From NCBI GenBank assembly GCA_007693595.1, contig REDI01000047.1, positions 62,001 through 126,000 on the forward strand: a DNA stretch of 64,000 nucleotides, written 5' to 3'. Source of the stretch: Deltaproteobacteria bacterium. Its GTDB lineage: Bacteria; Myxococcota_A; UBA796; GCA-2862545. The position numbers and the translations under genes were made by a program. Position 1 is the first letter of the stretch; each line of letters begins with the position of its first letter. The notes below the pieces were generated by a model. That model saw only the letters and a list, made by a program, of their open reading frames with translations. It was not told where the DNA came from and searched no databases. Positions 44,112-55,187 of this stretch are shown here, in pieces.

Positions 44112-45917
44112 CTAGAGGTCGCGCTTGGGCGGGTCTGCTGGGCTTGGTGGGGCGGGCGCGGCCGGCGTGGTCGGAGCGTCGTCCGCGGAGGGCTCGCCGG
44201 ACGGGGTCTCCGCCTCGTTGGGAGGGGGCTCGGGTTCGAAGAGGTCGGTCCGGCCGGTGCTCGGACTCGGCTCTTCCCGCTCGATCGTCCGCTTTTCGAG
44301 GGCGCGCCGTGCGGCGAGGGCAGGATCGGGACGGGTCGATCGGCCGCCGAGCTGGGCTCGGAGCGCGGCGGCACGTTGCAGCACATCGTCGGTGGAGCGG
44401 GGGCCTGCGGCGGCCTCGGCCTGGATGCGGGCCAGCCGATCCGCACCGCTCTCGAGGCCGCGATCGGGGGTGGGCTGACGGCGGTCCTCGGCGGCCTGCA
44501 TGAGACGTCGTGCCGCCGCGAGGGGATCGGCCTCGGCGCGGCGCTGGCCTTCGGCGTAGGCTTCGTCGGCCATCGCGCGGATCCGGGCGAGCTCGGCGAC
44601 CCGGTCGAAGCCTTCGGGCTTGGCGCCAGCGCTCACCCGAGCCTGCCTTGCGCGGGCGAGGGCGGCTTCGGCGGGGGGGAGGTGGGCGAAGGGGTCCGGC
44701 TCAAGCGGACCCGTCTCGCCGCGGGCCTGCCTTGCGCGAGCGAGGGCGGCTTCGGCAGGAGGGAGGTGGCTGAACGCGTCGGGTGTCGGATCACCCACCC
44801 CTCGAGCTCTGCGCGCCCGTGCGATGGCCGCCTCGGCGGGGGGAAGGTGGCTGAACTCGTCCTGTTCTGGTGTGTCGGGTTCGCCGCGGGCCTGTCTCGC
44901 GCGGGCGAGGGCCGCCTCGGCGGGGTCGAGGTCGGCGAAGGGGTCGTCTTGGGGTGTGTCGGGTTCGCCGCGGGCCTGTCTCGCGCGGGCGAGGGCCGCC
45001 TCGGCGGGGTCGAGGTCGGCGAAGGGGTCGTCTTGGGGTGTGTCGGGTTCGCCGCGGGCCTGTCTCGCGCGGGCGAGGGCCGCCTCGGCGGGGTCGAGGT
45101 CGGCGAAGGGGTCGTCTTGGGGTGTGTCGGGTTCGCCGCGGGCCTGTCTCGCGCGGGCGAGGGCCGCCTCGGCGGGGTCGAGGTCGGCGAAGGGGTCGTC
45201 TTGGGGTGTGTCGGGTTCGCCGCGGGCCTGTCTCGCGCGGGCGAGGGCCGCCTCGGCGGGGTCGAGGTCGGCTGCGGGGGGAGGCTCATCGAGCTCGGTC
45301 CCGTCGGGGTCGGCCGCGGGCTCGGTCGGGTCGGCTCGAGCGTCTTCTGCTTCCTCGCGAGCGCCTTCGTCGAAGGCGGTGGCCCGGGCCGCTGCGGCTC
45401 GGGCGAGGGCCTCGCTGGCCGCGTCGAGTCCACCGCTGCCGGATCGGGCGGAGCGCATCGCCTCGAGCTGGGCGCGTGCGGAGGCGCGGCGCTCCTCGGC
45501 CTCGGCCTCGCGCTGAGCCCGGGCCTCTTCGTCTTCGGTGTCGTCGTCGCTCGTGGAGGAGGGCCCGACGCCTGCGCGCTGAAAGGCCTGCTCTCCCGCC
45601 TCGGTCAGCCCGGCTGCCCACTCGGGCTCTTCGCCTTCGGTGACCGGGAGGCCACTCGCGGCGCGGCGCGCCTCGGCTTCGCGCGCGCGGGCCGTGATCC
45701 GAGCCTCGGCGTCGCCGAGCGCGCCATCGAGCGCTTGCTTCGCCCGCTCGCTCGCCTGTCCCACGGCGGCGCGCGCCCCGGTCGTGACCCCGTCGACCAG
45801 GCGGCGACCGGCCTCGCGCGCGGCGGCCTCGCCGATCTTTCGCCCGAGCTCGTCGGTCAAGCCACCGCCTTGGGTGTCGGTCTTCTCGCTTGGTCCCTTC
45901 GTCTCATCCTTGGACAT
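44112..45917 (-). CDS. Acidic/alanine-rich protein with 28-residue tandem repeats
   Basis: This 601-residue soluble protein has no signal peptide. Residues 1-210 are helical and charged (KIGEAAAREAGRRLVDGVTTG). The centre holds eight copies of a roughly 28-residue unit built on PAEAALARARQARGEPDT, with five near-identical copies followed by three that have drifted (HLPPAEAA...). The C-terminus is Pro/Glu/Asp-rich. The repeats look like alternating helix and loop, perhaps forming a long stalk or interaction platform. Codon use in the repeats is biased, as expected for a recent expansion. It overlaps the acetyltransferase gene by 14 bases upstream. Function unknown. Confidence 0.8.
   Translation of the reverse strand: MSKDETKGPSEKTDTQGGGLTDELGRKIGEAAAREAGRRLVDGVTTGARAAVGQASERAKQALDGALGDAEARITARAREAEARRAASGLPVTEGEEPEWAAGLTEAGEQAFQRAGVGPSSTSDDDTEDEEARAQREAEAEERRASARAQLEAMRSARSGSGGLDAASEALARAAAARATAFDEGAREEAEDARADPTEPAADPDGTELDEPPPAADLDPAEAALARARQARGEPDTPQDDPFADLDPAEAALARARQARGEPDTPQDDPFADLDPAEAALARARQARGEPDTPQDDPFADLDPAEAALARARQARGEPDTPQDDPFADLDPAEAALARARQARGEPDTPEQDEFSHLPPAEAAIARARRARGVGDPTPDAFSHLPPAEAALARARQARGETGPLEPDPFAHLPPAEAALARARQARVSAGAKPEGFDRVAELARIRAMADEAYAEGQRRAEADPLAAARRLMQAAEDRRQPTPDRGLESGADRLARIQAEAAAGPRSTDDVLQRAAALRAQLGGRSTRPDPALAARRALEKRTIEREEPSPSTGRTDLFEPEPPPNEAETPSGEPSADDAPTTPAAPAPPSPADPPKRDL
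44637..45269 (-). repeat. 84-bp tandem repeat array, eight units
   Basis: Five units (44850-45269) repeat with an exact 84-base period and are nearly identical; three more (44637-44849) are diverged and one is 81 bases. All stay in frame in the protein at 44112-45917. Identical units at DNA level suggest recent expansion by slippage or recombination. Confidence 0.95.
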
Positions 45918-46577: not shown

Positions 46578-48032
46578 ATGCGATTCAAGAGTGTTGTGTT
46601 GCTCGGACTGCTGCTCTCGGTGTCGAGCGCCGGTCCTCCTACGTCCCGCGTTCAGGCTGAAGCGCCGGGTCTGGAGCCCCTCGAGCCGGCCGTCGCCTGG
46701 GAGCGCGGTCATGTCGTGCTCGACGGGGCGACGGTGTGGACGGTGGCGGGCGAGGTGCTCTCGCCGGGCTGGGTCGAGATCGACGAGGGACGGATCCTTC
46801 GAGTGGGCGCGGGCCAGGCGCCGAGCGTGCAGGGGGCCCAGGTGCTCGACGTGCAAGGAAAGCACCTCACACCTGGCTTGATCGACACGCACTCCCACCT
46901 TGGGGTCTACCCTTCCCCCCGAGTTCAGGCGCACGCCGATGGCAACGAGGCCACCAAGCCCGTCACCGCGGGCGTGTGGGCGGAGCACTCGGTCTGGCCT
47001 CAGGATCCGGGCTTTCGCAGGGCGGTCGAGGGTGGGGTGACCGCGCTGCAGATCCTCCCAGGCTCGGCCAACCTGGTCGGCGGGCGTGGCGTCGTGCTCC
47101 AGTTGCTACCCGCCCGTGGGGCGCGGGCCATGCGCTTCCCCGGCGCCCCCGAGACCGTCAAGCTCGCCTGTGGCGAGAACCCCAAGCGCGTCTACCAGAG
47201 CCGAGGGCCCTCCACGCGCATGGGCAACCTCTACGGCCAGCGCAAGGCCTTCATCGAGGCCGAAGCCTATCGCAAGAAGTGGAAGAAGTACGAAGATAAG
47301 GCCAAGAAGTCTCGCGAGGAGCGCGAGGCCTGGAAGCGCGACAACGCCCGCCGACTCGAGCGGGGTCGCGACCCCAAAGATCCCAAACCGTCAGGGCCCG
47401 GCGATCCGCCCACGAGGGACCTCGACAAGGACACGCTGGCCGGGGTGCTCGATGGCACGATCCTCCCGCAGATCCATTGCTATCGTGCCGACGACATGAT
47501 CTCGATGCTCCAGGTCGCCCAAGAGTTCGACTTTCGGGTTCGATCCTTTCATCATGCGGTCGAGGCCTACAAGATCCGCGACATCCTCGCGGAGCACGAG
47601 GTCTCGGTCAGCACGTGGGCCGACTGGTGGGGCTTCAAGCTCGAAGCCCACGACGCGATCATGGCTAACGCCGCTCTGGTGCACGCCGCGGGGGGGCGGG
47701 CCGTGATCCACTCCGACTCCGAGATCGGCATCCAGCGCCTCAACCAAGAGGCGGCCAAGGCTCTCCGAGCGGGGCGCGAGCTCGGGCTCGATCTCTCCGA
47801 GTCCGATGCCTTGTCTTGGATCACGACCAACGCGGCTTGGACGCTGGGCATCGACGACCAGACTGGAGCGATCGTCGAGGGTCTGCGCGCGGATCTGGTC
47901 GTATGGAGCGGCCCGCCCCTCAGCGTCTACAGCGAGCCTGAGCGGGTCTACATCGACGGGGTGCCGACCCTCGGCGCCGAGGTCGAGATCGAGCACTCCG
48001 ACTTCATGATCGGCCTGGAGGTGGTTCCATGA
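46578..48032 (+). CDS. Secreted amidohydrolase (imidazolonepropionase-like)
   Basis: This 484-residue protein has a signal peptide (VVLLGLLLSVSSAGPPTS). The amidohydrolase fold has GKHLTPGLIDTHSHLGVYP (metal-binding H-x-H), further ligand candidates in IRSFHHAVEAYK-type and HAAGGRAVIHSDSEIG (the Asp after the His), and the C-terminal ADLVVWSGPP that closes the composite sandwich. It belongs with the imidazolonepropionase-like secreted amidohydrolases; the substrate is unknown. A Lys/Glu-rich helical insert (AYRKKWKKYEDKAKKSREER) sits in the middle and is unusual. The stop overlaps the next amidohydrolase gene (ATGA). Confidence 0.88.
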   Translation: MRFKSVVLLGLLLSVSSAGPPTSRVQAEAPGLEPLEPAVAWERGHVVLDGATVWTVAGEVLSPGWVEIDEGRILRVGAGQAPSVQGAQVLDVQGKHLTPGLIDTHSHLGVYPSPRVQAHADGNEATKPVTAGVWAEHSVWPQDPGFRRAVEGGVTALQILPGSANLVGGRGVVLQLLPARGARAMRFPGAPETVKLACGENPKRVYQSRGPSTRMGNLYGQRKAFIEAEAYRKKWKKYEDKAKKSREEREAWKRDNARRLERGRDPKDPKPSGPGDPPTRDLDKDTLAGVLDGTILPQIHCYRADDMISMLQVAQEFDFRVRSFHHAVEAYKIRDILAEHEVSVSTWADWWGFKLEAHDAIMANAALVHAAGGRAVIHSDSEIGIQRLNQEAAKALRAGRELGLDLSESDALSWITTNAAWTLGIDDQTGAIVEGLRADLVVWSGPPLSVYSEPERVYIDGVPTLGAEVEIEHSDFMIGLEVVP

Positions 48033-49336
48033 GGCGCCTGCTCTTTTTGGGGCTCTTCACCGTCGCGCCTGCGCTTGCGGGCCCAGATCGGCACCTCCTT
48101 CCTCCCGAGCTGAACGATGCAGACTGCGTAGCCTTCTTGCCTCTGAAGGGCGAAGCTCGCGTGGTGCTGCCCGAGGGCGAGCGTTCGGGCGAAGTGGGGG
48201 TCGTGGTCGCGGGTGAGCGTATCATCGAAGTCGAACCGTCCGATGAGCTCCTCCGCCGGGGAGATCGGGTGCAGCACCGCGGTACCCCCTGCGCGGTGGT
48301 CGACATCACAGACCAAACCCTCATGCCGGGTTTGGTCGAGCTCAACACCCAGCTCGGACTCGTCGAGATCAGCGCCGAGTCGTCGACCGACCAGAGCGGC
48401 GCTGGCCGTGGTCGGATCCGAGCCTTTCTCCGTGTGGACGAGGTCTACGATCCAAGCTCCATCGCGATCCCGGTGCAGCGGGTCGAGGGCATCACCTCAG
48501 CGATGGTGCAGCCCAAGAAGGGGCTGGTCAGCGGGCGGGCCGCCTTCTTCGATCTGGCGGGCCAGACTCAGGCCGAGGCGAGAGCCAGCGCGATCGAGCC
48601 GGTCGTCGTCCGCATGCCGAGCTCGAACCGGGGCGCGGCGATCGCCGACCTCCATGAGCTCCTGCTCGACACCGCGCTCTATGTGCGGAACACCAACGCC
48701 TTCGATCAGAACCGCTTTCGACCGACGCGGGCGGATCGTCTTGATCTCGAGGCGATGATCCCGGTGCTCCGTGGGCAACAGCCGCTGCTCGTGCACGCGG
48801 ACCGCGCGGCGGACGTCGAGGCCCTACTCCGCCTCCAAGGTGAGTTCGGTCTTCGCATGGTGCTCGTGGGGGGCGCAGAGGCCTGGCGGCACGGGCCCGC
48901 CCTGGCCAAGGCGGGGGTGCCGGTCGTCGTCGACCCTCTCGTCTACGGTCCTGGCACCTTCGATCAGATGCACGCACGCCCCGACAACGCGGCCTTGCTC
49001 GCCGAAGCGGGGGTAACCGTCGTCCTCTCGAGTGGATCGACCCACAACGCGCGCACCTTGCGGCAGGTGGCTGGCAACGCCGTGCGTGGCGGCCTCGACC
49101 GCGAGGTGGCGCTGCGGGCGATCAGCACCTACCCCGCCGAGATCGCCGGCTCCGACCGTGGGCGCATCGCTCCCGGACAGGTCGCGAACCTGGTGGTCTT
49201 CGACGGCGATCCCCTGGAGCCGCTCACCAGCACGACCTTCGTGATGATCCGTGGCCGACCCATCCCCCTCGACAGCCGGCCGTGGCGCCTAACCCTGCGT
49301 TACCTCTCCATGCCTCTGCCGGCGCCTCAGGACTAG
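48029..49336 (+). CDS. Amidohydrolase-like secreted protein lacking HxH
   Basis: This 435-residue protein has a signal peptide (LLFLGLFTVAPALAG) and is a diverged paralogue or partner of the gene before it. It keeps the fold (LMPGLVELNTQLGLVEIS, GIAPGQVANLVVFDGDPLEPL end sandwich). At the first metal motif it has ELNTQLG where an active enzyme has D-x-H-x-H, so that metal pair is gone. A late SSGSTHNARTLRQ partly resembles the catalytic-Asp region. It could be a non-catalytic partner of the upstream enzyme. The two are translationally coupled through ATGA at 48029-48032. Confidence 0.8.
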   Translation: MRRLLFLGLFTVAPALAGPDRHLLPPELNDADCVAFLPLKGEARVVLPEGERSGEVGVVVAGERIIEVEPSDELLRRGDRVQHRGTPCAVVDITDQTLMPGLVELNTQLGLVEISAESSTDQSGAGRGRIRAFLRVDEVYDPSSIAIPVQRVEGITSAMVQPKKGLVSGRAAFFDLAGQTQAEARASAIEPVVVRMPSSNRGAAIADLHELLLDTALYVRNTNAFDQNRFRPTRADRLDLEAMIPVLRGQQPLLVHADRAADVEALLRLQGEFGLRMVLVGGAEAWRHGPALAKAGVPVVVDPLVYGPGTFDQMHARPDNAALLAEAGVTVVLSSGSTHNARTLRQVAGNAVRGGLDREVALRAISTYPAEIAGSDRGRIAPGQVANLVVFDGDPLEPLTSTTFVMIRGRPIPLDSRPWRLTLRYLSMPLPAPQD

Positions 49337-49361: not shown

Positions 49362-51161
49362 TCAGGGAAGGACCGCGACGGGGGACTTCGTCGACGTGCT
49401 CCATCGGTCGAAGACGACGTCCTCGCCCAGGACGACGCCGACTTGGTAGTCGAAGGAGGTGCTACGAAGTCGATCGTGTGGGATGGAGCAGGTCAGGTCT
49501 TGGCGTAGCGGGACGTAGACATAGTTGGTGACCTCGGCGTCGTGGGCGGGGCGGAAGCGGCACAGGATCTCGGGCCAATCCCTCACCGCTTCGCGCGCCC
49601 AGACGCGGAGCTGGTCGCGCTCGACCCGGACGCTGAGCAAGGGAAGCTTAGGGAGTTCCTTGGCCCGCGCGTGAAGCATCGCCTCCATGTGGCGCACGAC
49701 GAGGTCGAGATCGAAGTCGCAGCGTTCGGCGATGGCGCTCCAGAGTGACAGACCCGTGACCCGTCGGAGCCCGAACTCGCGCTGGGCCTCGAGCACGCAT
49801 CGTCGGGTGGGTGCCCCTCCGAAGTCGTCGAGCGCCGCCACGAAGGCTTGTCCGATGGGGTAGACCTGAGCGAGGTCGCGCTCTCGTCTGAAGAGGTTGT
49901 CCTCGACGAGCAGGGCGAAGCTCACAGGATCCCGACGGTGGATGGCGGCGGCGATGTCGGGGAGGGGATCGCGCCCTTGGAGCTTGGCTTCGACCCAGCT
50001 CGCGAGTCCTTCCTCGAAGAAGCGGTTGTGGCTTCGGAGACGCCAGGCCGCGGGGCCGGAGAGGTGAAAGGAGTGTGCATGGGTGAGCTCGTGAGCGACA
50101 ATATAGAGGCTTGTCTCTTGTTCGACGCGGATCCGGCCGCCGGTGAAGACCCCGGCGTGGTTCTCGGCGGCGCCGAGGAGCTCGACATCGAGGCTGAGCG
50201 GGTCGGGCTGGTCCAGCAGCGCGCCGACTCTGGCCGAGATCTCGTCGATCTCTGCGGCGATGGCCAGGGCGTGGTCCGCGTGGGGATCGCGATACAAGAC
50301 GCGCAGATGTTCGGTGGTGTGGACCTGTATACCTTGGGTGATCAGCGTCGGGGCAAAGGTCAGAAGGATGAAGCTCGCGACGCCTCCGATCGCCAACAGC
50401 GCGAGCGTCATCACCCCGGCAGTCACGATCCGAACCGCTCCGGTGGCCCAGGAGCCTTGCTTGAGCAAGAACGCGCCTGGTCCGAGGAAGAGCAAGAAGG
50501 AGCTCAGCGCGCCGAGGAGACCTAGGACCGGCCAAACCACCAGGGGGCCTGGCGGGTGCGTCGGCGCGCGGAGGTCCAGCACCACCTGGCCCCAGCCCCC
50601 CGACATGGGCATGTACTCTTGAAGCGGCGGGTAGACGACGGAGATCATGCCGAGCATGACGAAGGCAACGACCAGCACGCCCCAGGCGAGCACCCGAAAC
50701 CAAGAGAGCACGAGCCCCAGGCCGTACCCGGCGACGCAGGGCGTGATCAAGATGAGGTTCTGATAGAGGATCGGCCAGAGGCCTTCGCTCTCGGGTAGTC
50801 CCGGCGCGAGCCAGAGTTGGACGAGGTCCAAGAACATGGACGTGCCGATCCACGCGGAGCAGGGCAAGGCGCCGGCCACGGTCTTGGAGAGAAAGATCCC
50901 GCTTCGGGAGGTGGGAAGGCTGTCGAGGAACTCGACCTGCCCCTCGGCGACCTCGGGGGCGACGAGGGTGTGACCGATGGCAAAGGTAATAATGAAGAGG
51001 AGAAAGGCGGCGAAAGAGCCGCTAGCAACCCGGGAGGACATGCCGTCGAGGGTGAGCGAGGAGTCGAAGAGACGCAGGGTCACGTCGAGCGCCAAGAGCG
51101 CGAAGATCGCGATCCAGTGGGGCCACAGGGAGGAGGAGTCCTTGAGGAAGAGCGCGATCAT
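49362..51161 (-). CDS. ABC-2-type permease fused to a HExxH peptidase domain
   Basis: This 599-residue protein has about seven membrane helices in residues 1-275 (for example SFAAFLLFIITFAIGHTLVA, VLAWGVLVVAFVMLGMISVVY). A peptidase-like domain of about 320 residues follows, with HELTH at 357-361 and a third zinc ligand in FFEEGLASWVE (Glu384), the gluzincin pattern. An odd number of helices would place that domain in the periplasm; this is an inference. A zinc peptidase within an ABC exporter subunit may process or release its own cargo. It overlaps the upstream permease gene by one base (TGATG) and is the last gene of an operon with that permease and an ATPase. Confidence 0.85.
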   Translation of the reverse strand: MIALFLKDSSSLWPHWIAIFALLALDVTLRLFDSSLTLDGMSSRVASGSFAAFLLFIITFAIGHTLVAPEVAEGQVEFLDSLPTSRSGIFLSKTVAGALPCSAWIGTSMFLDLVQLWLAPGLPESEGLWPILYQNLILITPCVAGYGLGLVLSWFRVLAWGVLVVAFVMLGMISVVYPPLQEYMPMSGGWGQVVLDLRAPTHPPGPLVVWPVLGLLGALSSFLLFLGPGAFLLKQGSWATGAVRIVTAGVMTLALLAIGGVASFILLTFAPTLITQGIQVHTTEHLRVLYRDPHADHALAIAAEIDEISARVGALLDQPDPLSLDVELLGAAENHAGVFTGGRIRVEQETSLYIVAHELTHAHSFHLSGPAAWRLRSHNRFFEEGLASWVEAKLQGRDPLPDIAAAIHRRDPVSFALLVEDNLFRRERDLAQVYPIGQAFVAALDDFGGAPTRRCVLEAQREFGLRRVTGLSLWSAIAERCDFDLDLVVRHMEAMLHARAKELPKLPLLSVRVERDQLRVWAREAVRDWPEILCRFRPAHDAEVTNYVYVPLRQDLTCSIPHDRLRSTSFDYQVGVVLGEDVVFDRWSTSTKSPVAVLP

Positions 51162-52894
51162 CAGCGCACCGCCACGCCGCTCGAGTGCCAGCCCTCAAGC
51201 GAAGGATCGAAGAGGACAAGCTCCACGGCGAGTGGCTGAGAGAGGCTGAAGTCCAGCGGAAGGTCTGCGTCGTGCTCGGTGGCGTGCAGTCTCCAGGGCC
51301 TCGTGTCGCGTGGCCGTCGCTCCAGGTCATCGAGGGCCTGGCGGCGAAGGACGGCGCCTGGAGGGGTCTCGTGGCTGAACAGGGCGACCAGCACGCCCTG
51401 ATCGATCTCGATCTCGACCTTGGGAAGGGCTCGTCGTGGCGCTCGACCTTCGGCCCAGCTCTGGGAGGGCCCCGCCCCACACCGCGCCCGCATCCAGCCT
51501 TCGGGCAGGGTCCAAGAGGCCCACAGAGAGGCCAGGAGTCCCGATGCGCGACGGGTCGAGAAGGCGTGGCGCAGGACGCAGGGTGCGGAGTCCCCGAGGC
51601 TCTGGAGTCGAGCGACGGCCACGGCCTCGGCGACGTCGCGCCCGGCCGATAGTCGCTGCCCCGGATGGTCGGCTGTGGGATCCTCGACCCACGCCAGGCG
51701 CCGCTCGAGCGCGCTGGAAGGACGAACCCAGCCCGGCGCACCGTGGGCCAGGGCGTCGAGATCCGGGTGGATCAGGCCCAGGCTGCCCGCCTGTTCCTGA
51801 AGGACATACGTTGCGATCTCGCGCGCGAGGCTCTGGGTGGGGCCGTCGGGATCGACGAGCAGGGCGAGCTCGGCTCCACCGCCCGGAGGGAGGCGGATGT
51901 GGCGATCGAGCCCCCGCGGGCTGGGGTACAGCAAGACCGATGGCCAGGCCTCGACGCCGACGACCTCGCCGAGATCATCCAAGATAGAGGCCGCCTCTTG
52001 ACCTACCTCTCGGAGCTGCCCCCCTCCGGACAGGTGAACGACGGCGTGGGTGGCAGGTACGGGCTGGGTGAGCTGGAGCGGAGGACGGGAGGGCGCGATC
52101 GCGAGCAGGATCGGCTCGAGGGTGAGCACCAGGATCATGCCGAGCATGACCGTGGCGCGCTGTCGGGCGTTGGAGACGCCGTACCATCGATCGGGAAACA
52201 TTCCACCCTTGAAGGCGGCGATCGAGAACCCCAGTACGAGGGCGCCCACCGTCCAGGCGAGGGTGATCGGGACGGCGCCGTAGGGGGGAAGGCTCCGCCC
52301 ATGATCGAGGGGCTCAGCGAGCACGGCGTGCCACATCAGGCTTGAGAAGGCGTTGCTTACCCAGCCCGCGCCGATGGAGGAGGCGCCTGCGAGCAAGGCC
52401 CACCACAGCAGCCAGCGCCACCGGCCGAACCAAGCGACAGCGAAGGACACGGCGTGCCAGGCCACCATGTAGAGGCCACACTGCCAGTGGAGCTGCAACA
52501 GCCACCAGCCGGGTAGCCCTTGCATGCGCAGGGCGAGGAGCGCGGTGGTCATCAAGGTCAGCTCCGTCAGGAGCAGGGTGAGGCCCAGGCCCATGAGGTA
52601 GGGCACGCCGAGGCGGAGCGGCGTGGAGAGAGGTAAGGCAGCCAGGAACTCAGAGGTGCCATCGGCGAGGTCGCGGGCCACCAAGCGCTCGTTAATCAGG
52701 ATCACCACCAGAGGTCCCAGGTAGTAGAGTGCGCCCACCCCGGCATCGATCACGCTGTTCTCGGATCGGATCAATACCGAGCTCCACGCCGTGACCAGCA
52801 GCGCCGCGAACAGCAGTCCGGCCCAGACCAGCATGCCCAGGTGGTGCACCAGGTTCTTGAGCACCAGGGCGGCGACGACCCGAAGGGCGGTCAT
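51161..52894 (-). CDS. ABC-2-type permease with degenerate peptidase-like domain
   Basis: This 577-residue protein has the same two-part plan as its downstream neighbour: about seven membrane helices (MLVWAGLLFAALLVTAW, AVPITLAWTVGALVLGFSIA) and a soluble C-terminal domain. Where the neighbour has HELTH it has REIAT (in SLAREIATYVLQEQ), and where the neighbour has EEGLASWVE it has ERRLAWVED. The flanking sequence still matches, so it is a homologous domain that has lost its zinc site. The two probably form a heterodimeric exporter with one active and one structural peptidase-like lobe. Its start overlaps the ATPase gene's stop (ATGA at 52891-52894). Confidence 0.82.
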   Translation of the reverse strand: MTALRVVAALVLKNLVHHLGMLVWAGLLFAALLVTAWSSVLIRSENSVIDAGVGALYYLGPLVVILINERLVARDLADGTSEFLAALPLSTPLRLGVPYLMGLGLTLLLTELTLMTTALLALRMQGLPGWWLLQLHWQCGLYMVAWHAVSFAVAWFGRWRWLLWWALLAGASSIGAGWVSNAFSSLMWHAVLAEPLDHGRSLPPYGAVPITLAWTVGALVLGFSIAAFKGGMFPDRWYGVSNARQRATVMLGMILVLTLEPILLAIAPSRPPLQLTQPVPATHAVVHLSGGGQLREVGQEAASILDDLGEVVGVEAWPSVLLYPSPRGLDRHIRLPPGGGAELALLVDPDGPTQSLAREIATYVLQEQAGSLGLIHPDLDALAHGAPGWVRPSSALERRLAWVEDPTADHPGQRLSAGRDVAEAVAVARLQSLGDSAPCVLRHAFSTRRASGLLASLWASWTLPEGWMRARCGAGPSQSWAEGRAPRRALPKVEIEIDQGVLVALFSHETPPGAVLRRQALDDLERRPRDTRPWRLHATEHDADLPLDFSLSQPLAVELVLFDPSLEGWHSSGVAVR

Positions 52895-53724
52895 GCGTCT
52901 TGCCGCGCGATGGCCACGAAGGCCTCTTCGAGAGAGACGCTTGCGGTCATGAGGTCGCGCCAGATCTCAGGGTCGCCCCAGCCGATCACGCCACGATCAT
53001 CTTCATGAAGCGCCAGCGCTCCCTCGGGGAGCTGGCCCACCCTGCGCACCCGCGCGGCGAAGTCCGAGACCGAACCCTGAAAGAAGATGCGTCCGTCGTG
53101 AAGGATGCCGACCTGGTCGCCGATGTCGACGACCTCGCTGACGGTGTGGGTGCTGAACACGACCGTGCAGTCCCCCTCATCGACCGTCTGGCGCAAGAGA
53201 TCCAGGATCTCGCGTCGGGTCACGGGATCGACGCCGGCGGTGGGCTCGTCGAGCAGCAGGAGGGGAGGCCGGTGGGCCAGGGCGAGCGCCATCGCCAGCT
53301 TCATGCGGGTGCCTCCCGACAGGGTCCCGACCCGCTGGTTCGGCTCGATCGAGAGCCGCTCGAGCAGCGAGGCGAAATAGGAGGGATCCCAGGTCGGATA
53401 GAAGGCACCGACGAAGCGGCCCAGGGTTCGCACCTTCATCCAAGGGTAGAAGTGCTGCTGCTGGCTGACGTAGCCGATCCTTCGTCGCTGCCTGGGCCGG
53501 GTACGCCGGATGCGGTGCCCGTCTAAGGCCATGGTCCCACCATGGGGCGAGAGGATCCCTACGAGCATCCGGAGCGTGGTGGTCTTCCCGGCGCCGTTAC
53601 GCCCGAGGAAGCCGTAGATAACACCACGAGGAACGCGAAGATCGAGGCCCTTTATGACCTGGCGTGAACCGAAGCGGCGGATCAGCCCCTCGGTCGTCAC
53701 GGCGAGCTCCGTGTCTCTGTCCAC
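52891..53724 (-). CDS. ABC transporter ATP-binding protein
   Basis: This 277-residue ATPase has Walker A GRNGAGKTTTL (about residue 42), signature TLSGGTRMKLAMAL, Walker B LLLLDEPTAGVDP and the switch His in VVFSTHTVSEV. It has the C-terminal extension typical of ABC-2 exporter ATPases (GVIGWGDPEIWRDLM). It is the first gene of the operon, coupled by ATGA to the first permease and then to the permease-peptidase, so it surely powers that heterodimeric exporter. The N-terminus starts MDRDTELAVTTEGL with a GGAGG-like site upstream. Confidence 0.93.
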   Translation of the reverse strand: MDRDTELAVTTEGLIRRFGSRQVIKGLDLRVPRGVIYGFLGRNGAGKTTTLRMLVGILSPHGGTMALDGHRIRRTRPRQRRRIGYVSQQQHFYPWMKVRTLGRFVGAFYPTWDPSYFASLLERLSIEPNQRVGTLSGGTRMKLAMALALAHRPPLLLLDEPTAGVDPVTRREILDLLRQTVDEGDCTVVFSTHTVSEVVDIGDQVGILHDGRIFFQGSVSDFAARVRRVGQLPEGALALHEDDRGVIGWGDPEIWRDLMTASVSLEEAFVAIARQDA

Positions 53725-53780: not shown

Positions 53781-55187
53781 CTACCAGCTTCCGCCTACCC
53801 GGAATCCGGCTTGGGTCTGCCCGACGAAGGCGGTCACGCCCAGTCCGGCGCCGCCCAACATCAGCGCGCCGCTGCTGACCACCAAGGCGTTGGCCGTTGT
53901 GCGGCGAGACCGGAGGTCCGCGGAGGTATAGCCAGGGCTGGGGGTGCCGTTTGCGACCCCGGCTGCGACCCCGTACAGCCCGCCGCCGACCGCGACCAGC
54001 CCTGCTCCCGTACCGAGGATCGGGATGTTCAGCCCGTCGCGTCCGCCGCTCGGCTTCTCTTTGGGCGGCGGAGCTGTGATGTCTTTGCCCTTGGGCGGTG
54101 GGGCGGGACCATCGGTGGCGTCGGCCTTGCCGTCGGGGTCCTCGGCGGTGGGAGTGCCCTCCTTGGACGGGTCGGCCTTGGTCTCGTCGCCTGTGGGCTT
54201 GACCTTGCTGGTCTCGGTGGTGGTGCGCTCGCCGGCACCGACGCGGCGGGTGACCGTGGTGGTGAAGCCCTCTTCGTCGACCTCGGGATCGGGCTTGGAG
54301 GTGTCGGCGGCGGCGACTGTGGCGCTCTTGGCGTCGTCGTCGTCGGTGACGACCGCGGGCTCGTCGTCGGGGATCGGCGGGTCGGGCTCGTCGGGGGGGG
54401 AGACGTCGAGATCGATGTCGAGTCCAGGGTCGTCGTCGTCGTCGCCCATCATGGCGGCGATGTCGGACTCGTCGAGACGGCGCGCCGCTTCGAGCTCCTT
54501 GTGCAGGTCGGGGGCCTTGGTGTGGCTCTGGCCGGCCCACCACTTCGCGACCTTGTAGGGCTTTCCACCCTTCTGCACGAACTTCTGGGTGACGCTGTCG
54601 TTGAACTCCACCCCGTTCAGCCAGAAGCCCTCGACCCACTCGCCGTTGCGGTCGAAGACCTGCACCAGGGAGCGAACATTCTCGTAGCTTGTGGGCTTCT
54701 GGATCAGGCGGCCGTTCATGAGGACCACTCCGCGCTTGGGAGGCACGGCGTGCCCGTCGAAGGTCACGGGGGGGATGTCGAGGGTGTCGATGTCTCGGAC
54801 GACGAGGCGCAAGGGGTGGGTCGGTCCGATGTCCTCGGGAAAGGAGTTCCCGTTGACCGAGAGCGCCACGAGCATCCACTCCGCGGCGTTATCCATCTTT
54901 TGGTCGAAGAAATACATCTGCGCGCGTAGGGTCGCGAAGCGCGCGAGCTCCTGCGGCGTGACGGGGCTCGTGATGCACCGGGCTTGCTTTTCGGCGGTCT
55001 CGGCCTGGTAGCGCGCTTCGTTCATGTCGAAGTCGTCGAAGGCCTTTTCGATCGCCGCCATCTGGTCGCGGAACTCCTCGATGGAGTACGGGTTGCACAT
55101 CTCGTACACCGCGTGAGCCGGCTCAGCAGCGAAGAGGCTCGCCGCGAGGAGGGGTAGGGTCAAGGCGATGGAGCCAGCGCCGCGCAT
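53781..55187 (-). CDS. Secreted acidic protein with C-terminal membrane segments, unknown
   Basis: This 468-residue protein has a signal peptide (LTLPLLAASLFAAEPAHA) and a structured N-terminal half of about 200 residues (VYEMCNPYSIEEFRDQMAAI and later PKRGVVLMNGRLIQ). A 130-residue Asp/Pro/Thr/Lys-rich low-complexity region follows, and two hydrophobic segments near the end (ILGTGAGLVAVGGGLYGVAAG, ALVVSSGALMLGGAGLGVTAF) could be a hairpin anchor. The two halves together suggest a periplasmic domain on a flexible stalk. I do not recognise the family. A GGAGG site precedes the ATG at 55187. It follows the ABC operon's ATPase gene by about 60 bases on the same strand. Confidence 0.75.
   Translation of the reverse strand: MRGAGSIALTLPLLAASLFAAEPAHAVYEMCNPYSIEEFRDQMAAIEKAFDDFDMNEARYQAETAEKQARCITSPVTPQELARFATLRAQMYFFDQKMDNAAEWMLVALSVNGNSFPEDIGPTHPLRLVVRDIDTLDIPPVTFDGHAVPPKRGVVLMNGRLIQKPTSYENVRSLVQVFDRNGEWVEGFWLNGVEFNDSVTQKFVQKGGKPYKVAKWWAGQSHTKAPDLHKELEAARRLDESDIAAMMGDDDDDPGLDIDLDVSPPDEPDPPIPDDEPAVVTDDDDAKSATVAAADTSKPDPEVDEEGFTTTVTRRVGAGERTTTETSKVKPTGDETKADPSKEGTPTAEDPDGKADATDGPAPPPKGKDITAPPPKEKPSGGRDGLNIPILGTGAGLVAVGGGLYGVAAGVANGTPSPGYTSADLRSRRTTANALVVSSGALMLGGAGLGVTAFVGQTQAGFRVGGSW

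Follow-up and report, generated by a model that had tools for sequence, protein, structure and literature searches.

The fusion of a peptidase to an ABC-2 permease has been on record since 2013, when M. xanthus Q1D520 (TC 3.A.1.145.1) was reported to join an ABC-2 protein to an M1 domain at its C-terminus (PMC3924187). Q1D520 is a single protein of 1200 residues whose sole peptidase domain has been placed in M1, and its 13 predicted helices would be compatible with a 6+7 arrangement and a periplasmic peptidase. A search of the open-access literature turned up no study of how such permease-peptidase fusions function. Peptidase domains also occur on the PCAT/AMS and HlyB ABC exporters, among which a degenerate form has been reused for substrate recruitment, the C39-like domain of HlyB recruiting its substrate without cutting it (PMC6363468, PMC8277102). 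The PCAT/AMS domain is a cysteine protease that sits at the N-terminus of a type IV exporter and acts on the cytoplasmic side, and the live and dead forms found in PCAT and HlyB belong to different transporters.

Here we analyse a three-gene cassette from some myxobacteria and their relatives that resembles Q1D520 and TC 3.A.1.145 in joining an ABC-2 permease to a C-terminal gluzincin domain with a predicted zinc site, and that offers, in the Sandaracinaceae, a defined case for studying the function of the uncharacterised TC 3.A.1.145 permease-peptidase fusions. Unlike Q1D520, as judged from its published description, the cassette encodes two seven-helix half-permeases with a domain on each, one of them dead, and its live domain is not M1; a split into two half-permeases that consistently pair a live with a dead copy, together with a gluzincin outside M1, is not described for Q1D520. 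The cassette differs from PCAT/AMS and HlyB in that its peptidase domain is a C-terminal gluzincin and in that its live and dead forms would be paired in one transporter; no match to a C39 domain is found in the live homologues. The initial annotation could put no name to this layout; that it has no precedent is not supported, given both the permease with a C-terminal M1 peptidase in M. xanthus (PMC3924187) and the active and degenerate peptidase domains already known on PCAT and HlyB (PMC6363468, PMC8277102), and the permease-peptidase fusion as such is not new. M1 genes were surveyed for such a fusion in seven genomes and in 14 further regions, and none proved to be joined to a permease.

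One ATPase and two seven-helix permeases

The window, by which we mean the whole 64,000-nucleotide stretch of DNA analysed, belongs to contig 63 in an assembly of 4.9 Mb that is 98% complete. Three genes on its minus strand (49362-53724) encode an ABC ATPase subunit (P0003; 52891-53724, 277 aa, GTG start), a middle permease (P0002; 51161-52894, 577 aa) and a last permease (P0001; 49362-51161, 599 aa), and all features of these genes given below lie on the same strand. The ATPase and middle permease genes overlap by four bases (ATGA, 52891-52894) and the two permease genes by one (TGATG, at 51161); on re-reading the sequence, these coordinates and tight overlaps prove to be correct as first annotated. 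We use live for the last-gene permease, which has an HExxH motif, and dead for the middle-gene permease, which does not. Searches of the window proteins alone against Pfam and NCBIfam give a weak ABC-2 match and generic ATPase matches, and name nothing else.

P0003 carries Walker A (GRNGAGKTT), signature (LSGGTRMK) and Walker B (LLLLDEPTAG) motifs and matches Pfam ABC_tran with an E of 3.3e-30, and a homologue is present at all 16 loci at which we find the cassette. Its matches to PmtA ATPases (1e-49) and lantibiotic-protection ATPases (7e-38) are both far under the family cut-offs, and the substrate is not identifiable from such generic ABC-family scores. PADLOC returns generic ATPase matches on P0003 only, and a defence-system label was rejected.

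Hydropathy and models predict seven helices in the ABC-2 part of the last permease (residues 1-276; 50334-51161) and in that of the middle permease (residues 1-270; 52085-52894), in line with the roughly seven membrane helices and C-terminal region of about 300 residues first annotated for each. Residues 1-230 of the last permease match the permease fold of NosY of NosDFY with a Z of 16.6 (218 residues, 3.7 Å), and the middle permease does so with a Z of 16.5 (222 residues, 3.7 Å), with ABCG and efflux pumps scoring almost as high as NosY against the middle-gene model. The likeness to NosFY(D) is confined to this fold, NosY having no peptidase head, unlike the cassette permeases, and NosD being a separate protein. 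Pfam ABC2_membrane_2 is recovered at E ≤ 1, as a weak match, in 10 of 12 live homologues (best E 3.5e-11) and in 7 of 12 dead ones (best E 3.2e-9). The cassette thus combines an ABC-2 permease fold (the two NosY matches) with a cognate ATPase (ABC_tran) and agrees with the ABC-2 type exporters, which are recognised by this fold with its cytoplasmic coupling loop and by such an ATPase.

Counts of Lys plus Arg per sequence reach 4.0-4.3 in the TM2-3 loop and 3.5-3.7 in the TM6-7 loop, both predicted inside, versus 0.4-2.0 in the outside loops, all for loops that differ in length, and the excess holds for most predicted inside loops. The stretch just after helix 7 bears a net charge of -2.8 in both permeases. 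Both C-terminal domains are most likely periplasmic, as had been argued from an odd helix count, an argument with which the seven predicted helices and the loop charges agree.

Fold of the two C-terminal domains

By its AlphaFold2 model, computed with six homologues (mean pLDDT 75), the product of the last gene is an ABC-2 half-permease extended by an extra helix and a gluzincin-fold domain. Foldseek and VIA-align matches of the model identify residues 277-505 (49647-50333) as a predicted gluzincin metallopeptidase domain: the segment from about residue 270 to 505 aligns with collagenase 8jt1 (VIA-align Z 14.8, 209 residues, 3.5 Å) and with the M1 peptidase 6ifg (Z 14.5, 210 residues, 3.5 Å), and Foldseek lists M1 aminopeptidases at an E of 1.1e-4. 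In the model the HExxH motif sits on a helix, with a downstream Glu, inside a gluzincin fold, the arrangement by which gluzincins are recognised. The motif reads HELTH (357-361; 50079-50093) and is predicted to bind zinc and to be catalytic; E384, in an EEG (383-385; 50007-50015), is the likely third zinc ligand, and Y434 (49860-49862) is a candidate catalytic tyrosine. The E358-Y434 spacing is 76 residues, and the spacing of E242 and Y315, mutated in the M30 lugdulysin according to the title of 7bb9, is 73. The protein ends in a predicted beta-sandwich (506-599; 49362-49646, stop included) with invariant R537 and W587. The initial annotation had read HELTH at 357-361 and FFEEGLASWVE at 381-391 as a gluzincin zinc site and had proposed structure prediction as a check; both motifs are where it put them, the predicted fold is that of a gluzincin metallopeptidase, and the zinc-site residues are invariant (see below).

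An M1 family label for the domain was rejected, as the HExxH-to-Glu spacing is 20-22 in 16/16 copies and not 18, the GXMEN exopeptidase motif is missing in the live copies, and PF01433 is unmatched at E ≤ 1 in 12 live homologues. A sequence search of the PDB with the live profile gives matches at E 0.43 and 0.97 only, to M1 enzymes around HExxH.

The C-terminal region of the middle permease (residues 271-577; 51161-52084, stop included) would hold a degenerate gluzincin-like domain and a beta-sandwich, as judged from hhalign and from a poor model in which residues 370-487 fall below pLDDT 50 and VIA structure matches span residues 1-276 only. hhalign aligns the dead and live C-domains end to end with an E of 3e-7, versus 0.36-0.99 for 20 column-shuffled controls, and comparison of the two permease-part profiles gives an E of 5e-20. 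At the level of profiles, the dead C-domain is most likely a degenerate relative of the live one. The model, the alignment and the profile comparison point to helix 353-369 (51788-51838), which contains REIAT, as the equivalent of the HExxH helix. The degenerate site that had been annotated here stands in part: the REIAT helix (SLAREIATYVLQ) is in place to within about one helical turn, but the pairing of ERRLAWVED with FFEEGLASWVE is not upheld, the profile alignment instead setting FFEEGLASW opposite ALAHGAPGW (about 380-388 of the middle protein).

Conservation and history of the live/dead pair

We find the cassette at 16 loci, in two myxobacterial families and one further MAG, with homologues in 6/21 genomes of the window's own family (f1) and in 9/10 genomes of a second family (f43), which belongs to another class of the same phylum. 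The sixteenth locus, in the single MAG, came from a profile search of genome contigs; the contig scan with an alignment returned six loci, five of them already known from other searches, the same scan with the P0001 sequence alone found nothing, and tblastn against plasmids gave no cassette homologue. Near copies among the loci (L060/L082, L061/L063 and L064/L079) bring the number of independent lineages nearer to 13, and partial profile matches such as L083 and L085, which are other HExxH proteins without a permease part, were set aside.

The order ATPase-dead-live is kept at 16/16 loci, and the dead and live genes overlap in nearly all. HExxH occurs at the same position in 16/16 live copies and in 0/16 middle copies, a pattern that is more than chance, and H357, E358, H361, R380, E384, G385, A387 and Y434 are invariant in 12/12 aligned live copies, with live homologues 20-38% identical to the window protein across the two families. 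Whether the motif would prove to be lost at random, with no synteny, or conserved together with its degenerate partner had been left by the initial annotation to a search of other genomes; both the motif and the pairing are conserved in two families. One genome (G012) is exceptional in that an aldo/keto reductase and other unrelated genes, one of them on the opposite strand, lie between the dead and live genes, both of which are kept; because of this arrangement, co-transcription of the cassette is not universal. The same interval (L020:8134-9609) encodes a protein with many short Cys/Asp repeats (CGVCDxDPTNDC).

A tree of the permease parts places every live copy in one group and every dead copy in another (support 100/99), and the two families separate inside each group; this tree is unrooted, carries a long-branch warning and does not set the ancestral form. 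Since it divides live from dead copies first and the families only within each, the pair appears to predate the split of the two families or to have moved jointly between them. Within f1, the live C-domain is somewhat more conserved than its own permease part (33% vs 28%) and the dead C-domain is less so (24% vs 31%), the pattern to be expected from catalysis being retained by the live copy and relaxed in the dead one.

Proposed mechanism and gene neighbourhood

The conserved pairing of an intact with a lost zinc site suggests a pump whose substrates are peptides, which it would cut immediately beyond the inner membrane. We give an even chance to a single inner-membrane ABC transporter with live and dead periplasmic heads, by which a peptide would be exported or extracted and then cut by the live head. 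In the complex that we infer, an ATPase homodimer and a heterodimer of two related, distinct ABC-2 permeases would form one transporter, and helix 7 of each permease would carry its gluzincin-type domain into the periplasm, so that each complex would have two heads, one a functional zinc peptidase and the other dead. ATP-driven movement of the permease pair would export a peptide or extract one that is inserted in the membrane; the dead head would assist in its binding or positioning, and cleavage at the periplasmic face would fall to the live head. By analogy, the C39-like domain of HlyB is the nearest experimental parallel for such a dead head. More tentatively, the cassette may represent a new class of ABC transporter in which the dead partner is obligate in the heterodimer, with the ATPase cycle handing a peptide drawn from the membrane or the cytoplasm from the dead head, as receptor, to the live, cutting head. 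If the proposed mechanism holds, a single machine facing the periplasm would both use energy to move peptides and cleave them, and its enzyme/pseudoenzyme pair would apparently have become fixed before the two myxobacterial families diverged.

A conserved cargo gene was sought in the flanks (about 3-8 kb) of the 16 loci and none was found, only the three cassette genes being common to all; several flank matches between loci are shadow frames of core genes. A TetR gene lies directly upstream of the ATPase in 4/9 f43 loci, and a BlaI repressor and an M56 BlaR1-like peptidase lie near the cassette at two f1 loci. Because no conserved cargo gene is nearby and repressor genes stand beside some copies, these data favour an environmental or general substrate, e.g., membrane-active peptides, over a dedicated precursor.

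LanFEG transporters consist of one ATPase and two different ABC-2 permeases, are not known to carry peptidase domains and reside within lantibiotic clusters. The cassette has this composition of one ATPase and two distinct ABC-2 permeases, and could serve in resistance in the manner of LanFEG or Bce transporters, pulling antimicrobial peptides out of the membrane for the live head to destroy. We consider such a detoxification role unlikely: the similarity of P0003 to lantibiotic-protection and PmtA ATPases, the TetR or BlaI/BlaR1 genes beside 6/16 copies and the lack of a conserved cargo gene are all consistent with it, but the ATPase scores are generic and under cut-off, the regulators occur at a minority of loci, and a non-exhaustive scan of the flanks revealed no genes for bacteriocins or lanthipeptides.

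ABC machinery can also do mechanical work, as when FtsEX drives cell-wall hydrolases and NosFY drives NosD. A cassette of this kind would transport nothing, ATP hydrolysis driving the periplasmic heads while the live head processes an envelope protein. That NosY of NosDFY is the nearest permease fold and that the heads are covalently attached, and periplasmic by prediction, would fit this doubtful reading; however, NosY may merely be the best-solved ABC-2 half-permease of this size, and ABCG and efflux pumps score nearly equally. Dedicated secretion and maturation, in which a self-made peptide or lipoprotein would lose its leader to the live head after export, finds an analogy in the PCAT exporters, but no cargo gene is shared by the 16 loci over flanks of about 3-8 kb, and we consider it improbable. 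A vestigial zinc site, with two heads that serve for binding only and an HExxH that has survived by chance, is highly improbable given that the full ligand set, R380 and Y434 do not vary across two families whose live copies are 20-38% identical to the window protein.

Several neighbouring genes merit a brief description. The BlaR1-type M56 peptidase genes near two cassettes (L018:3409-4842 and L021:10628-12460) adjoin BlaI-like repressors, and the M56 peptidase of L018 also has a C-terminal transglycosylase SLT domain; we know of no other M56-SLT fusion of this kind. In the window, another minus-strand gene (53781-55187) lies 56 bases upstream of the ATPase and could be co-transcribed with the cassette; its product, of 468 aa, probably has a signal peptide, is unmatched in Pfam and has no homologue at the other loci. 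Convergent with the cassette are two overlapping amidohydrolase-family genes (46578-49336, plus strand), both of which match Amidohydro_1/3 and neither of which has a homologue near other loci at the threshold used. Further along the window, a minus-strand ORF (44112-45917) contains, at 44814-45272, an 84-base unit repeated five and a half times with a 96% match, so that the low-complexity protein it encodes has a repeat of 28 residues (DLDPAEAALARARQARGEPDTPQDDPFA).
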